Source: a virus | Reading direction: 5' to 3' (one strand) | Virus record (IMG/VR): IMGVR_UViG_3300034198_006004 | Location: 1 to 38,014 of that record | Length of the DNA: 38,014 nucleotides | Part shown: positions 25,219 to 35,990 of the stretch, piece after piece | Layout: every line of letters starts with the position of its first letter | Position numbering within the stretch: the first letter of the stretch is position 1 | Notes under the pieces: generated by a model | Database searches by the model: none | What the model was told of the DNA's origin: nothing | Seen by the model: only the letters and a program-made list of their open reading frames with translations | Program-made: the position numbers and the translations under genes

Positions 25219-25631
25219 TTGACGCACCATGGGCAAGGAATCATCGCCGCTTCCATTCGCTTGCTTTCCTCTTCGTCAATCTCAAATTGCATCGGGTAAT
25301 CATCTGGAAGCACTGCCATCTCACCAGCGCACTTGCGGCAGAACTCTGGCTCCGTTGGCGAAACCCAATACCGGCGCGCCTTGTCCTTTTCCTGCTGCAC
25401 CCAAAGCCGTATCTCTCCAGGCGACGGCATCCGGTTGGTGGTGGAAGATGACGCCCGCGCAATATCGCTGCGTATCGCCTCCATTGCGTTGCAAGCCATC
25501 GCATCGCTGTCTGCTTCGGCCGCCAGTGCGTGTATCAGGCTCGCCATGGCCTCGGGAAGCGTGTTTTGGTAGTAGGGAAGCCCAGAAAGCATTTCAATGC
25601 GCTGGGCGGCCAGTTCAAAGCTAATGGGCAT
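25215..25631 (-). CDS. Replication-associated protein, putative zinc site, 138 aa
   Basis: The gene follows directly on the initiator and overlaps it by 11 bp. N-terminal helices (FELAAQRIEMLSGLPYYQNT, then EAMASLIHALAAEADSDA) resemble the small partner proteins that come after DnaD/O-type initiators. A C-terminal CRKCAGEMA then PCPWC could bind zinc. A helicase-loading role is possible by position, not by recognised homology. Start MPIS at 25631 is chosen over the Arg-rich longer frame. Confidence 0.6.
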   Translation of the reverse strand: MPISFELAAQRIEMLSGLPYYQNTLPEAMASLIHALAAEADSDAMACNAMEAIRSDIARASSSTTNRMPSPGEIRLWVQQEKDKARRYWVSPTEPEFCRKCAGEMAVLPDDYPMQFEIDEEESKRMEAAMIPCPWCVK

Positions 25632-26580
25632 GGTTTTTCTCCTGTATCCCGAGCATCTCTTTCGCAATGTCTAAATTTGATTTCTTCGCCGGCTGCTGTT
25701 CGCTGTCTAACACCCGTGGCGCCGGGCGCGAGTAATCGCGGTCCTGCACCCACTTCTCCAGCGTCGGGATGAAGTGGCGTTGGTTCGACTTCCGGCATTG
25801 CTCATGGGCGACGCTGTGAACCATTGCCGTTTGCCGAATCTTCCGGCACCACTCTTCCGGGCCTTCCACCGCGTCCACCGCGTGTCGCTCCCACACCCGC
25901 TTGGCGTTCGGCACGTTGCCCAGGATCGGCCAAAACTGCGCGATATCCTCGACGGCCTCCGATACGAGAGTCTGTACATCGAGCTCGTCACCGAATGGCA
26001 GGAACTCGGGTTGCTGCTGCTGTTGTTTCCGCGTCGGTGGCGGAGGCGCCGCGCGCGTTGCTGCGACAGCAGCAACGTCTGATTCTGTCTCTGTATCTGT
26101 ATCTGTCTCTGAGGGCGTCACCGTGACGGCGTTGTGACGGTGATGTGACGGTGTGGGTGTGACGGTGATGACCGTCACATGACCGTCACCGTGACGGCGA
26201 GATGTTGTCACATGTGACGGCGAGTGGCCGTCACCGTGACGGTCAACTTCCGTCACATCTCCCGGATTTGTCTTATCCCGCAGTTTTTTCATGCGAGATC
26301 GGGAACTGTCTGACTCGTATTGAAACTTGTCCCAGTTGTGTGGTCTGGCAATATCGCCGTCCATCTCCACTAAGCGAACAGTGGCCATGCGCTGAATGTG
26401 CTTCTCTAGCACATCTGGCGTAAGTCGTAGAAGAAACGCTAGTTGCTCATTGTCGGGCAAGTTTCCGCCGTATTTTTTGTACGCGCAAAGGTACAAAATC
26501 CACGTCTGAAACACTTCCGGCCCAAGCATCAAAACCTTGGGATCTGCGAGGATATCGTCGTAAAGCCTTAGCCAAGCCAT
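25621..26580 (-). CDS. Replication initiator with winged-helix N terminus, 319 aa
   Basis: Residues 1-95 have a phage replication-organiser feel: WLRLYDDILADPKVLMLGPE, then a helix-turn-helix-like LPDNEQLAFLLRLTPDVLEK and a HNWDKFQYES end typical of Rep/DnaD-type winged helices. Residues about 105-200 are a low-complexity linker (His/Asp/Thr/Ser, then Pro and Gln runs) whose DNA contains the iteron array. The C-terminal 120 residues form a second folded domain ending with LDIAKEMLGIQ. By analogy with lambda O, the N-terminal domain may bind repeats in its own gene and the C-terminal part recruit helicase. GAGG lies 7 nt before the ATG. Confidence 0.8.
   Translation of the reverse strand: MAWLRLYDDILADPKVLMLGPEVFQTWILYLCAYKKYGGNLPDNEQLAFLLRLTPDVLEKHIQRMATVRLVEMDGDIARPHNWDKFQYESDSSRSRMKKLRDKTNPGDVTEVDRHGDGHSPSHVTTSRRHGDGHVTVITVTPTPSHHRHNAVTVTPSETDTDTETESDVAAVAATRAAPPPPTRKQQQQQPEFLPFGDELDVQTLVSEAVEDIAQFWPILGNVPNAKRVWERHAVDAVEGPEEWCRKIRQTAMVHSVAHEQCRKSNQRHFIPTLEKWVQDRDYSRPAPRVLDSEQQPAKKSNLDIAKEMLGIQEKNHAH
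26115..26256 (+). repeat. Iteron array GTGACGG, candidate replication origin inside rep
   Basis: In 142 bp there are seven exact GTGACGG (starting 26123, 26134, 26145, 26159, 26191, 26214, 26236) and four exact inverted CCGTCAC (starting 26172, 26183, 26228, 26250), plus near copies at 26115 and 26205. Two perfect dyads CCGTCAC-C-GTGACGG lie at 26183-26197 and 26228-26242, a near copy at 26115-26129, and a palindrome GTCACATGTGAC at 26206-26217. Placement inside the linker-encoding part of the initiator gene is like the origin of lambda. A TCTGTATCTG microsatellite lies next to it (26087-26112). Confidence 0.8.
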
Positions 26581-26759
26581 TTACAGGCCTCGCACGCGCA
26601 AGTCTGCGCACCCGCTAGCGGGTTGAATATGTTCATGATTTTGCTCGGTTCTTTCCGCTCTAGTTCTTTAAGTGGCGGGAGTTGTCGGCATAACTCCCGC
26701 TCACAGAACCAGAGCAAAGGTGGGGGATCAGTCCCACATATCAATTATCCATCACGTAC
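26581..26759 (-). promoter_or_regulatory. Structured leader region upstream of rep, with alternative stems
   Basis: No convincing gene lies here. A long stem of 13 bp with one bulged base pairs 26640-26652 with 26705-26718. Inside it a perfect 9-bp stem GCGGGAGTT/AACTCCCGC lies at 26675-26683 with 26692-26700. A second copy of the outer half (GCTCTAGTTCT, 26657-26667) could pair with the same partner (26705-26715) with one mismatch, excluding the first. Further dyads are a 14-bp palindrome at 26610-26623 and GTGGG/CCCAC at 26720-26737. It lies in the transcript just before the initiator ATG, so it may control rep or belong to the origin. Confidence 0.6.
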
Positions 26760-27585: not shown

Positions 27586-27731
27586 GGCTTGGACTCATGC
27601 TCAATCAGGAACTCTTCCGCAAACCAGTCACCCATGCCCAACTCTGCCAGCGGGTGACCATCTGCGATGTACCGCGCCGCCGCTTCCCGCTGCTCGCGCT
27701 GGGCTGTCGCTATCAAGTCATTCGGCTGCAT
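27582..27731 (-). CDS. Small hypothetical protein, 49 aa
   Basis: An ATG at 27731 within the end of the helicase-methyltransferase gene opens a frame with a clear helical, acidic product (ATAQREQREAAARYIADGHP, then LGMGDWFAEEFLIEHE). It ends in ATGA with the next gene. Coupling and protein-like composition support it. No function is recognised. Confidence 0.6.
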   Translation of the reverse strand: MQPNDLIATAQREQREAAARYIADGHPLAELGMGDWFAEEFLIEHESKP

Positions 27732-29916
27732 CGAACAGCCCTCCTTGGCGCATCTTGTCGTGTTCGGCCTGCTTTAAATTCTTGACCGCCACCTGCCAGT
27801 ACGACTCCTTCAACTCCGCTCCGATGAAGCGGCGCTGCATCTTCAACGCCTGATACCCTTCGCTCCCGATTCCCATAAACGGGCTTAAAACCGTGTCTCC
27901 CTCGTTTGACCACAGCCGGATGCCGCGCTCGATCACGTCAAGCTGTAGCGGGCAGATATGGCGCTCGTCTTCCTCGTCCCGAGCTTCGGCACGAGCGAGA
28001 GTATTCGACTGGTCGATATCCATCCACACCGGCGAAGCGTACCGCTGCCACAAAGACACCGGAAACGATTCGTGTGTCTTGGTGACGCGCTCGGGGTTAT
28101 CGCCGTGCTTGCGCATCGTCACCAAGTAATCCGGGATTCCTTGACGGCTGATGGTAGAATCCTTGCGCAATTGCTTGTACAGGAGACCGATGGCCTTCGT
28201 CCGCTGCATTGCCGTGACCGGATCTTTCCAGATGCAAACCTCACTATGGAAGATGAAACCGGCGTCCTGAAATAGCTTAATCAGAATGCCGCGAAAGTCG
28301 CGCACGCCGATGAATCCGTCGCGCTCTTTAGATAGCGGCAGGTTCATGCAGTGGAATGATACCAACCGCCCCGGCATCAGCACGCGGTGTAACTGGTGGA
28401 CGAGATACTCAAACTGCGTCATGAAGTCGTCGTAGTTGGCGCAGTTGCCCATGTCTCGGTCAGAGTTGCTGTACGTGTACAGGCTGGCGAACGGCGGAGA
28501 GAAGATCGAATAGTGGATGCTATCAGATGGCAGTTCGCCGACCACTTCGACGCAATCTCCAAGATGAGCGGTGAACCGCTCACCCGCAAACACGTCGCGC
28601 TTGTACTCGGACTTCTGATTGCTTTCGACTCCCAAGTTTTTCTCCATTTCGCTCCTCATGTGATCCACCATTCCGGCCATCATTTCGTTGGCCTGACGTT
28701 CCTTCCGTTCGATATTTCGCACAACAGCGCCTTCGATGTCGGTCGTGATGACGTGCGCGTTGACTTCGCGGGTTTGGCCGAAGCGCCAGCAGCGCCGCAC
28801 TGCTTGATAGAACTGCTCAAAGGAATCCGACATGCCGACGAAGGCCATGTTGCGGCAGTGCTGGTAGTTCATGCCAAACCCCATGATCTCCGGCTTGCTC
28901 ACGATCACGCGGATCTCGCCTCGCTGAAACGCCAGCATGGAATTACGCTTGTGTTCCGGCGAGTCCGAACCTGTAACCTCCACCGCGCCCGGGATCGCAG
29001 CCGTGATGGCCTTAGACTCATCATTCAGCCCACACCACATGATCCACGGCCCGTTGTCGCCGTTCGCCAGTTCGGCCGCTTTCGCCACGCGAAGCGCTAT
29101 GGTGTCACGCCGCGCCGCTTGCCGCTCCTGTAACGTCTCAGCCTCAACCATGAACAGTTTGCCTTCCGGCACGATGCCGCTTTCGATGGCGTGCTGGTAC
29201 ATGTTCAGCGGCGGCAGGTCGTAGCCGGTATCGTCAAACCCGATATCGGAGGGTCGCCGAACGGCCACCGCCCATGATGCTACCCATTTCCAGAACTCCG
29301 ATTGCGCGTGCCCTTTGAGCCGCCATTTCGACGTGTCGCCGCCGTCGTGGGTGAAGAACATGGCGAGCATTTCTGAGCACTTCATCACGCCCAAATACTC
29401 CGCATGGTTTCCGAGTTCCATGTAATCGTTTGGAGCTGGCGTTGCCGAGCATGGCAGTCGGTACGGGATTGGTTCAGAGAACTCCGTCAGCGCCGCGCGA
29501 AACTTCGACGTAAATCCCTTCAATATGCTCGACTCATCTAACACGATTCCGCTGTAGCGTTCCGGTGTGAATCGGTGAATCTTCTCGTAGTTGGTGATCT
29601 GGATGCGGTCATCCGATGGATCACTCACCACAGCCGCGCCATGAATGCCGAACTTGTCAGCTTCCCTCGCGGTCTGTTCTGCCACCGCGAGCGGAGCAAG
29701 AATTAGAACCTTGCCCGGTATGCGGTGAGCCCATTCGAGTTGCATGAACGTCTTGCCCATGCCCGTATCTGCAAAAATTGCACGACGCCCGCCGCGCAAC
29801 GCCCATCGGACGATGGATTTCTGAAACGGTTTCATCATCGCGTTGATGTCGGTTACCCCAAATCCACACGGCTTTGCATACCGTTGTTTCGACACAATGA
29901 ACTCTTCGTATGTCAT
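27718..29916 (-). CDS. SNF2-like helicase fused to DNA methyltransferase (SPPF type), 732 aa
   Basis: The N-terminal about 440 residues are a DEAD/SNF2 motor: FADTGMGKTFMQ (Walker A), GIVLDESSILKG (motif II), PCSATPAPNDYME (motif III) and EQFYQAVRRCWRFGQTREV (motif VI). The C-terminal about 270 residues are a beta-type methyltransferase: FSPPFASLYTY (catalytic SPPF, N4-cytosine or N6-adenine) and later SPFMGIGSEGYQALKMQRRF (SAM site). Catalytic before SAM motif is the beta order. The start MTYEEFIVSK at 29916 overlaps the upstream stop (ATGA). The motor may move DNA for modification or anti-restriction; that is inference. Confidence 0.93.
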   Translation of the reverse strand: MTYEEFIVSKQRYAKPCGFGVTDINAMMKPFQKSIVRWALRGGRRAIFADTGMGKTFMQLEWAHRIPGKVLILAPLAVAEQTAREADKFGIHGAAVVSDPSDDRIQITNYEKIHRFTPERYSGIVLDESSILKGFTSKFRAALTEFSEPIPYRLPCSATPAPNDYMELGNHAEYLGVMKCSEMLAMFFTHDGGDTSKWRLKGHAQSEFWKWVASWAVAVRRPSDIGFDDTGYDLPPLNMYQHAIESGIVPEGKLFMVEAETLQERQAARRDTIALRVAKAAELANGDNGPWIMWCGLNDESKAITAAIPGAVEVTGSDSPEHKRNSMLAFQRGEIRVIVSKPEIMGFGMNYQHCRNMAFVGMSDSFEQFYQAVRRCWRFGQTREVNAHVITTDIEGAVVRNIERKERQANEMMAGMVDHMRSEMEKNLGVESNQKSEYKRDVFAGERFTAHLGDCVEVVGELPSDSIHYSIFSPPFASLYTYSNSDRDMGNCANYDDFMTQFEYLVHQLHRVLMPGRLVSFHCMNLPLSKERDGFIGVRDFRGILIKLFQDAGFIFHSEVCIWKDPVTAMQRTKAIGLLYKQLRKDSTISRQGIPDYLVTMRKHGDNPERVTKTHESFPVSLWQRYASPVWMDIDQSNTLARAEARDEEDERHICPLQLDVIERGIRLWSNEGDTVLSPFMGIGSEGYQALKMQRRFIGAELKESYWQVAVKNLKQAEHDKMRQGGLFDAAE

Positions 29917-30371
29917 ACCCGCCCCCAATCCAAAGTAGCCCACCGTGGCACTGTATTCCCAACATCCGCCAGTGTCGCCCACTCGCAATCAGGGCCTCCA
30001 CGCAGGCCTTTAAAAGCAGCGCAAGCGTTCCTAGGCTTATCCACCTGCCCGCACGTAGCCTCGCGCATCGCCCGCTCAGAGCGGCGCTTTTCCATCATTG
30101 CCTCACTGCCTCGGCGGGCACCTTCCGCGCGTCTCTTTGCCACGCACGCAGCGCAGCGGGTGGCCGTGGTCAGACCGCTGATGAACGCGCTGCAATCCTC
30201 GCAGTTACGCTCAGACGGGCGTGCTGCTTTCAGCTTGTCCAGGTATTCCCGCCTCGCCTTCTGGCCGCATGGGCGGCAGACGTTGTGGCTGACCTTGTAC
30301 ATCTCGTCCCGTGAGTAAATCGGCTCTTTGCAATGCGGGCATGGGTCGCCCGGCTTCCATGGTGGTCTCAT
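29913..30371 (-). CDS. Zinc-ribbon protein upstream of the fusion, 152 aa
   Basis: Two Cys4 sets are seen: CPHCKEPI...CRPCGQ (about residues 11-36) and CEDCSAFI...CAACVAK (about 57-78). A basic Arg/Ala-rich helix region (RRAEGARRGSEAMMEKRRSE) follows, then an aromatic end with two WATL motifs. AGGAG lies 4-5 nt before the ATG at 30371. It is coupled by ATGA to the helicase-methyltransferase. It may be its DNA-targeting partner, which is inference from context. Confidence 0.7.
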   Translation of the reverse strand: MRPPWKPGDPCPHCKEPIYSRDEMYKVSHNVCRPCGQKARREYLDKLKAARPSERNCEDCSAFISGLTTATRCAACVAKRRAEGARRGSEAMMEKRRSERAMREATCGQVDKPRNACAAFKGLRGGPDCEWATLADVGNTVPRWATLDWGRV

Positions 30372-30409: not shown

Positions 30410-31114
30410 TTACTGCTGATCCGCTTCGATTATTCGGCGTCCGATCCACTCGGCGACTTGGGGGACAATACTGTTTCCGCAGGCTTTAAGTCTGTCCAAC
30501 CCAACGGGAACCCCATTAACCACTCGCTGAATTCGGGGTGGCACCAGTGTGTTTTCCCAATACCCGGATTGCGCAATGGATTCCGCAGGGTCGAGCCAAA
30601 AGAACTTAGGGCAAAGCGGTTGTCCGATGCTTGCGGGGTAGGCCACCATGAAAACTCTAAGCCGCTCATGCCATGCGCCGAATTGGGTTGCTCGAAAACT
30701 TCGCCATTGAGCATTAAACCCAAGCTCGGAAAGGTCTCCGAGAACTCGGCGCATAGCGGCGTTGTCAAGCAAGCCTGAGACGTTCTCAATGAGTATGAAT
30801 CGTGGTCGAATTTCCCCAACGAGACGAGCGTATTCTGACCACAGCCCGCTTCGCGTGCCGGTGACAATACCGCGTCTAGATCCACCGATACTGAGATCCT
30901 GGCAAGGGAATCCGCCTGCGATGCAATCGACGTCTCCAAGTTGCTCTCCTGTGACTTCCTTGATATCTCCATACTTAGGCACCTCCGGCCAATGTTTCGT
31001 TAATACCTTCTGGCAGAACGGGTCTATCTCGACCTGCCATTTGCACGTCATCCCGGCCCGCTCCAGGCCAAGGTCCATCCCGCCAATTCCCGCGAATAGG
31101 CTTCCAAACGTCAT
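30410..31114 (-). CDS. C5-cytosine DNA methyltransferase, short, 234 aa
   Basis: All core motifs are present: SLFAGIGGMDLGL (motif I), GGFPCQDLSIGG (IV, catalytic Cys), ILIENVSGLL (VI), FRATQFGAWHERLRVFMVAY (VIII) and LKACGNSIVPQVAEWIGR (X). The target-recognition stretch between VIII and the end is only about 50 residues, so the enzyme is reduced compared with the usual 330-400. It would methylate phage DNA to escape host restriction, or alter host DNA. A second reading frame overlaps its last two thirds. Confidence 0.93.
   Translation of the reverse strand: MTFGSLFAGIGGMDLGLERAGMTCKWQVEIDPFCQKVLTKHWPEVPKYGDIKEVTGEQLGDVDCIAGGFPCQDLSIGGSRRGIVTGTRSGLWSEYARLVGEIRPRFILIENVSGLLDNAAMRRVLGDLSELGFNAQWRSFRATQFGAWHERLRVFMVAYPASIGQPLCPKFFWLDPAESIAQSGYWENTLVPPRIQRVVNGVPVGLDRLKACGNSIVPQVAEWIGRRIIEADQQ
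30430..30972 (-). other. Overprinted open frame inside the cytosine methyltransferase, 180 aa
   Basis: In the +1 frame of the methyltransferase an ATG-initiated frame runs 180 codons. Its content, FSETFPSLGLMLNGEV, SWWPTPQASDNRF and EFSEWLMGFPLGWTDLKPAE, has the W-PTP-x-SD and MGFP-x-GWT patterns seen in hypothetical proteins that are often annotated beside phage Dcm genes. That set may exist because the alternative frame of a conserved enzyme is conserved too. No strong ribosome site is seen. I record it as an observation, not as a proven gene. Confidence 0.4.
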
Positions 31115-34486: not shown

Positions 34487-34903
34487 TCAGAATGGTACGT
34501 CGTCGTCAGAAATACCGCTGTCAATTGACGCCCGCTGCGCGCCACGCGGCTGACTCACCAACCCTCCGCCGTCCTGCTTGTCGCCGCCACCGAACACCTG
34601 AACGCCATTGAAAGGGTCAGCGGTGATGACCGTCTTGCTGCCCTTCACGCCGTCCTTCTCCCATGTCTCAACCGCGAGCCGTCCCGTGACAAGGACCAAA
34701 GCGCCCTTTTTCAGCTCGTCCAGCTTCCACTGGATTAGATCGCCCCACACGTTGACATTGAACCACGATGTAACCTTGTCAGCCCCCTTCTTCTCAGTGA
34801 CGGCCACGCTGAACGTGTGCAGCGCTTTACCTGATGCCACGTGCTTTGTCTCCACGTCTCGGCCGAGGTGTCCCATGACCGTTGCTTGTGCTAAATACGG
34901 CAT
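34487..34903 (-). CDS. ssb: Single-stranded DNA-binding protein, 138 aa
   Basis: The OB fold has the usual order: ATVMGHLGRDVETKHVASGK, then FSVAVTEKKGADKVTSWFNV, then WGDLIQWKLDELKKGALVLV and GRLAVETWEKDG. A flexible Gly/Gln part and the acidic end SDDDVPF follow, the last binding partner proteins. GGAAAGGG precedes the ATG, which overlaps the stop of the Sak4-like gene. SSB and Sak4 are typical partners in phage annealing recombination. Confidence 0.97.
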   Translation of the reverse strand: MPYLAQATVMGHLGRDVETKHVASGKALHTFSVAVTEKKGADKVTSWFNVNVWGDLIQWKLDELKKGALVLVTGRLAVETWEKDGVKGSKTVITADPFNGVQVFGGGDKQDGGGLVSQPRGAQRASIDSGISDDDVPF

Positions 34904-35790
34904 TATTTGCCCTTTCCGGCTTTCGCCACCAGCGCCTTATAGCAGGCGGTTGCTTGTGCTTTGTCGGTGAACTGCTGCGGCCGCCCGACGCCGAAATCAG
35001 TCAAAACCGACATCACGTCCTCAGCAGAGAGTTCTTTCGCAGCCTCCGCAAAGGCGTCAATCAGCGGCTGATTTGGTGCCCAGGCTGGCGGCTCCGGTCG
35101 GTCATCGGGAGCGCCTTGCAGCCAGTCCAGCAGTGTTTCGGCCATTTCTCGCCCTGGTCGATTGAGAACCGCGCCGCTCAACTTCGGACAGCGTGACTTG
35201 GTGACCGTGAGGGTATTGTCTTGGTCAATTTCTCCGCACACGTCAAACTCAAACTCGATGCCGTCGCGCATGACCGGTGCCAGCCCAATCTTTCGCGGCG
35301 AACGCTTGCCGTTGACTTCTTCAATGACCCATTCGGTTTTGGTGCGCATCGACACCAAAACATGAATCTTGGCTGAAAGGATCTTATCAACCAAGGCTTG
35401 GTGGTACGGCGTGACATTCTTCCAGGCCGCGAACGTATTCCCGCCACTTGATCGCTTGGCTGCGGCATCCACCATGTCAAGTTCTCCGCCCTTCCCCATC
35501 CAGTAATGGGACAGCGAGTCCACCACGATGACCGCGTACCCGCCATCTACCGCCGCGTCAATCGTCTTCACGAGATCGCGCGGATCAAAGGTGGACGGCT
35601 CCACCACATCAAACTCAAACAGGTCGGCGTACTTGCTTGCCGAACCATGCTCTGTGTCAATGACCGCGACCTTTCCGCCGCCAGCCAAATTCTTCGCCAG
35701 TTCCAGCAATGAATAGGTCTTACCCGCTCCCGCTGGCCCGCAGATCGCAAACCGTAGTTTTGCGTTTCGCTTTACTGCTCGCTCAAACAT
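34903..35790 (-). CDS. Sak4-like RecA-fold recombinase/ATPase, 295 aa
   Basis: The core has ICGPAGAGKTYSLLELAKNL (Walker A at about residues 17-25), KVAVIDTEHGSASKYADLFE, then YAVIVVDSLSHYWMGKGGEL (Walker B). GNTFAAWKNVTPYHQALVDK and LVSMRTKTEWVIEEVNGK follow. This is the AAA_24 / Sak4 order for short RecA-like annealing proteins. The start MFERAVKRN at 35790 has GGAGG 4-5 nt upstream. It is next to ssb, as in many phages with Sak4. Confidence 0.9.
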   Translation of the reverse strand: MFERAVKRNAKLRFAICGPAGAGKTYSLLELAKNLAGGGKVAVIDTEHGSASKYADLFEFDVVEPSTFDPRDLVKTIDAAVDGGYAVIVVDSLSHYWMGKGGELDMVDAAAKRSSGGNTFAAWKNVTPYHQALVDKILSAKIHVLVSMRTKTEWVIEEVNGKRSPRKIGLAPVMRDGIEFEFDVCGEIDQDNTLTVTKSRCPKLSGAVLNRPGREMAETLLDWLQGAPDDRPEPPAWAPNQPLIDAFAEAAKELSAEDVMSVLTDFGVGRPQQFTDKAQATACYKALVAKAGKGK

Positions 35791-35990
35791 GCTTCCTCCG
35801 TTGTCGTTTTGCAATCTTCCACCGCTTGCTGGAACGCCGCATCCAGCTTTTCAACGAGATCAACAAGCCCAGCCCGCCGCGCATCGTGCATCAGTTGATC
35901 AAGCGCCGCCGCCGCAATCATCGCTACGTTTTCAGCGCTGCCGATGGTAGGGAATCCAAGCTCACGCCGTTGATCGTTAACCGAGCCCAT
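35772..35990 (-). CDS. Small helical protein, 72 aa
   Basis: NVAMIAAAALDQLMHDARRA and LVDLVEKLDAAFQQAVEDC make two helices, with an acidic end containing TTEEACLSEQ. It overlaps the next gene by 19 bp and the upstream one by 14 bp. Its second half resembles the end of 35977-36174 (...L-x-Q-A-L/F-x-Q-A-V-x-x), so they may be distant copies. Confidence 0.6.
   Translation of the reverse strand: MGSVNDQRRELGFPTIGSAENVAMIAAAALDQLMHDARRAGLVDLVEKLDAAFQQAVEDCKTTTEEACLSEQ

Follow-up and report, generated by a model that had tools for sequence, protein, structure and literature searches.

In the lambda and Stx phages, iterons and an AT-rich melting tract are placed in the middle of the O gene and have been proven experimentally to be an origin of replication (PMC7466680). 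The layout of plasmid pSK41, where ori lies in the part of rep that encodes the linker, and where the C-terminal domain of Rep binds DnaG, is also experimentally an origin (PMC5703833). Here we describe the replication initiator gene of the complete virus record IMGVR_UViG_3300034198_006004 (38,014 base pairs (bp), referred to as the window), which contains repeated GTGACG sites and an adjoining run of CAGA units between the parts encoding its DNA-binding and C-terminal domains. Judging from the sequence, array and tract together very probably form the replication origin of this phage, embedded in its own initiator gene. The features discussed are the following, with nucleotide abbreviated as nt.

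25621-26580, minus strand: replication initiator gene, 319 amino acids, with the putative origin inside (translation and phrog_3926 match)
26317-26580, minus strand: N-terminal winged-helix domain, residues 1-88 (AlphaFold2 model, winged-helix structure matches and alignment)
26278-26316, minus strand: arginine-rich helix behind the wing, residues 89-101, the probable half-site reader (invariant R96 and R101; covariation of residues 91 and 94)
26115-26256, not stranded: iteron array of 12 GTGACG half-sites in both orientations, 11 of them extended to GTGACGG, with three 13-bp dyads (pattern search and frame analysis)
26112-26115, not stranded: 4-nt spacer from the last half-site (26116-26121) to the tract
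26078-26111, minus strand: CAGA tract, six CAGA units, one every 6 nt of the coding strand (TCTG on the plus strand), a probable melting or loading site (spacing analysis, relatives and codon control)
25621-26013, minus strand: C-terminal domain, beginning near residue 190 and presumed to be the partner of a helicase loader, helicase or primase (position)

Comparison with described origins

This kind of origin is thus known from lambda/Stx O and the RepA_N initiator of pSK41. Searches of an open-access library turned up neither the half-site grammar nor the CAGA tract, and no phage paper spelling out the repeats of the tract or the palindrome of half-sites (subscription papers were not covered). 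The likeness to lambda and Stx O concerns the arrangement, with an origin mid-initiator gene, iterons followed downstream by a melting tract with an A-rich coding strand, and an N-terminal part that binds the iterons (PMC7466680; NC_001416), melting and binding being those of lambda/Stx and their counterparts here being read from sequence; the CAGA tract sits where lambda has its AT-rich region. However, lambda has four direct 18-bp iterons and an AT-rich tract, neither of which is found here, and its origin (NC_001416) contains neither a GTNACG half-site nor a CAGA run. Moreover PF04492 (Phage_rep_O, the lambda O family) was not among the matches of the initiator (hmmscan against Pfam, E up to 0.1), and a P-like loader was not recognised among the scanned open reading frames (ORFs).

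With the pSK41-type RepA_N initiators the protein shares a winged-helix N-terminal domain, an ori-encoded linker and a C-terminal domain (PMC5703833; 4pt7, 4pta, 5kbj). The RepA_N-type structures 4pql, 4pt7 and 5kbj match the N-terminal domain at Z 8.3-8.4, a likeness not above that of generic winged helices, whereas RepA_N (PF06970) is not matched by the sequence under the same hmmscan limits, the boxes are other ones and the known systems are staphylococcal plasmids.

The GTGACG array

GTGACGG or its complement CCGTCAC is present in exactly 11 copies at 26123-26256, 7 on the plus and 4 on the minus strand. The entire window has 20 copies against 6.0 expected (maximum of 13 in 100 shuffles), and 11 of these 20 are packed into 134 bp. 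Two perfect CCGTCAC-C-GTGACGG dyads lie at 26183-26197 and 26228-26242 and a near copy, GCGTCAC-C-GTGACGG, at 26115-26129. Our recount agrees with the preliminary description of this locus, made from its letters, which had reported the eleven copies in both directions inside the initiator gene, the two dyads with a third near copy and the placement in a low-complexity linker. It was also right in seeing a short repeat of mixed orientation, although the basic unit is not GTGACGG but the 6-bp half-site GTGACG, and the array that it described is not the complete element, the adjoining CAGA tract having been overlooked.

The array provides the codons of about residues 109-156 of the initiator, the low-complexity linker. 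The 11 copies of GTGACGG are distributed over all three reading frames, with the CGTCACGGTGACG dyad in two frames, and synonymous-codon shuffles of the initiator ORF (n=5000) gave a mean of 1.6 copies and a maximum of 6. Since the repeats occur in all three frames and the synonymous shuffles fall far short, the constraint on the array acts on the DNA and not on the peptide, which supports the earlier view of a linker shaped by a DNA requirement.

The CAGA tract

The tract starts exactly 4 nt downstream, in gene direction, of the last GTGACG half-site. Its codons run counter to the usage of the genome, threonine being written ACA in 4 of 4 cases (10% elsewhere) and serine TCA in 2 of 2 (12% elsewhere). 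An exact scan of viral contigs placed ACAGATx3 directly behind the linker in four initiator-like clusters, which account for 79 of the 99 unique proteins among the matches listed; the clusters include DUF1376-like ones and were named by eye from the sequences, without a profile. The identical peptide written ACCGACx3 fell in these clusters in 0 of 78 cases, a control whose contigs are richer in GC and whose matches lie partly in other reading frames. Initiator-like genes with the tract were also found in genomes of Bacillota, Actinomycetota and Bacteroidota, by a search whose DNA pattern itself contains the tract and is therefore biased by construction (40 of 117 stretches initiator-like). The DnaD recognition element (TnnT) was considered as the identity of the tract and dropped, as (ACAGAT)n has no TnnT on either strand.

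Tracts of this type were also seen in other initiators. The DUF1376-like ones (L131, L209, L210 and similar), which have another N-terminal family, carry the identical ACAGAT tract after CAACGG/CCGTTGC-type repeats, and those of the DMPNDPKW type (L141, L142, L138, L197) have 4 to 7 copies of CGAACGC ahead of the tract. In the initiators of L431, L528 and L566 the winged-helix domain is separated from the tract by an HNH-endonuclease-like stretch.

Array and tract in homologous initiators

Two sets of relatives were compared. In the pooled set of 156 homologous initiators, which was partly selected by the tract, 146 have a CAGA run and 147 have two or more half-sites that end in ACG (such as GTRACG and GAAACG), and the window ranks first in half-site number. 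The preliminary description had pointed to related phages as the place where an equally conserved initiator without repeats might be met; with repeats in 147 of the 156, the outcome of this comparison favours the origin. The two-part pattern is repeated in more than 100 related phage genes, in differing reading frames. Searched in viral contigs, the dyad pattern alone retrieved mostly unrelated sequence, and a search there with the whole initiator protein found nothing.

The independent set consists of 65 unique relatives fetched by N-terminal protein similarity alone, the query and previously seen contigs being removed. At least three half-sites are present in 60 of them, with a mean of 4.9 per relative vs 2.6 in the synonymous null and 1.2 in other stretches, and 51 have at least three contiguous CAGA (NCAGAN) units, which occur in none of 464 control stretches from the identical loci. 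Only 18 of the 65 individually beat their own synonymous half-site null at p < 0.05, because many have only three or four half-sites, and the excess sits in the mean. As four of the five sequences used as queries for this set already had the tract, shared descent contributes to its frequency.

The CAGA units are spaced by 5 or 6 nt, and 35 of the 146 runs mix frames through the 5-nt spacing. Between half-sites and tract the commonest gap is 4 nt (71 of the 146 runs), with smaller peaks near 9-10 and 16, and the order of the elements (half-sites, then tract) is conserved. Because the synonymous null is exceeded and the spacing crosses frames, the constraint in the relatives is also one on the DNA. 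At the level of sequence, these comparisons show that array and tract are conserved as DNA, with their order and spacing.

Among named phages, Pseudomonas phages YMC/01/01/P52, PP9W and vB_PaeS-D14H, Acinetobacter phage Silvergun and Bradyrhizobium phage ppBjS10J-1 have a homologous N-terminal domain, and in their linkers half-sites or palindromes of the GTAACG type occur together with an ACAGAT tract. Their replication genes differ from the present one in having fewer half-sites with other letters (GTAACG and GTTTC types), and the origin is unannotated in their records. Closer in letters are the viral contigs L064/L008/L268, L263 and L472, where GTGACG(G) half-sites, including CGTCACGGTGACG dyads, are followed by the tract, which in L064 is read in another frame (QSQSQIQI); they have 4 to 9 GTGACG half-sites, against the 12 found here.

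The initiator and the reading of the half-sites

The best family match of the 319-amino-acid ORF in the profile search was phrog_3926, replication initiation protein (E 9.4e-9, residues 1-163). Phage_rep_org_N (PF09681) reached 16.6 bits, below its curated cut-off of 23.3 (hmmscan, Pfam), no significant match to solved structures was obtained by sequence search, and no family matches were found beyond the N-terminal half in the Pfam and PHROG profile searches. The initiator, which had been called unrelated-looking, is by these matches instead a member of a large family, though without sequence relation to lambda O. AlphaFold2 modelled the N-terminal domain with a predicted local distance difference test (pLDDT) of 89, and structure comparison gave winged-helix matches with Z up to 8.8, the solved neighbours being mostly regulators.

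In the alignment, R96 and R101 of the arginine-rich helix are invariant, and residues 94 and 91 share the most information with the half-site letters. On a tree built without columns 91 and 94, the choice of GAAACG or GTAACG tracks Thr91 (6.0 to 0 independent pairs, median p 0.03), while GTGACG tracks a residue other than valine at position 94 (3.6 to 0 of 4 pairs, a number too small to reach significance). As the half-site letters covary with two residues of this helix, it is probably the initiator itself that reads the repeats, through the arginine-rich helix behind its winged helix.

The putative origin and alternative explanations

The preliminary description had suggested an origin internal to the initiator gene, in the manner of lambda O, and this gains from the frame-independent repeats, the winged helix, the half-sites of the homologues and the covariation with the helix. 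We propose that initiator molecules would bind the GTGACG half-sites, as pairs where these form dyads, via winged helix and arginine-rich helix, as the covariation suggests. The nucleoprotein complex could melt the adjoining tract, the coding strand of which is CAGA-rich and T-poor, and the C-terminal domain, whose role as partner of a helicase loader, helicase or primase is presumed from its position, may recruit the host helicase and primase. The linker peptide would then be largely a by-product of the DNA requirement. One may also speculate that the tract is an array of DnaG primer start sites, because its lower strand has 5'-CTG every 6 nt; CTG is a trinucleotide efficiently primed by gammaproteobacterial DnaG (PMC5204125). 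This match is suggestive only, because tracts occur beyond the gammaproteobacteria, including in Bacillota, whose primases prefer trinucleotides other than CTG.

Some points weigh against an origin read in this way. The sign of the GC skew in the window is not the one that a bidirectional origin at the array would give, and neither a helicase nor a helicase-loader gene was recognised among the scanned ORFs. The covariation columns were selected as top scorers, the residues of this initiator (Arg91 and Met94) are the rarer ones, and shared descent also links 125 of the homologues.

An operator, at which the initiator or a different regulator of phage or host origin would bind the repeats to autoregulate the gene or a promoter while replication starts elsewhere, is the best of the alternatives, and we consider it improbable. 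Short half-site dyads do resemble the operators of winged-helix regulators, to which the nearest solved folds mostly belong, but the array is mid-gene, promoter-like or terminator-like sites were not found in 25900-26700, a fixed neighbouring CAGA tract is not an operator feature and the half-sites covary with the initiator. Autoregulation may be a side effect of the origin.

It is very improbable that the repeats merely encode a required linker (His/Asp/Thr/Val and Asp-Thr repeats), the DNA repeats following from the peptide. The linker is of low complexity, and 659 of the 750 CAGA units of the relatives are in one frame, so that an Asp-Thr/Glu-Thr stretch may be preferred. However, the identical 7-mer is used in all three frames and both directions, synonymous nulls are exceeded by the array here and, on average, by half-sites and tract in the relatives, and the ACCGAC control and the frame changes of the CAGA runs point the same way.

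Equally improbable is that the dyads act in the mRNA, as attenuation or translational control: the RNA here folds far better than shuffles (z -5.9), but any array of dyads would do so, two of three relatives tried that have overlapping palindromes (GTAACGTTAC) did not fold better than their shuffles (z 0.35 and -0.74) while the z of -3.8 of the third stems from a hairpin downstream of the tract, direct-repeat forms of the half-sites exist in relatives, and an Rfam scan gave no match.

Other genes of the window

At 27718-29988 (minus strand) a 756-amino-acid ORF fuses an SNF2/DEAD-like helicase part (PF00271, PF00270, phrog_16) with an N6_N4 DNA methyltransferase part (PF01555). In a C5 cytosine methyltransferase of 234 amino acids (30410-31114, minus strand), the match to PF00145 is confined to the first half of the profile (1-161 of 324). 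The neighbouring genes at 34487-35814 (minus strand) encode a single-strand DNA binding protein (phrog_44) and a Sak4-like ATPase (phrog_1366, phrog_124).

Implications for phage replication

To our knowledge, origins are unmapped in most sequenced phages, and the two-part pattern offers a readable, testable origin code. If the rule of half-site, 4-nt gap and CAGA tract is true, the origins of uncultured phages could be located from sequence, two helix residues might allow the specificity of an initiator to be predicted, and the tract would be a defined model for DNA opening and host replisome recruitment by a phage initiator. Tentatively, and with somewhat less than even confidence, we suggest that phage initiators across many host phyla, a very large class, have in common an origin grammar that is so far undescribed: dyads of half-sites ending in ACG and read by the helix that follows the winged helix, then a spacer of fixed length, and finally (CAGA)n with a spacing of 5-6 nt, read single-stranded, one possibility being tandem DnaG start sites (5'-CTG) and another a helicase loading strip. 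Were this grammar true, origins and initiator specificity would be readable from sequence alone.
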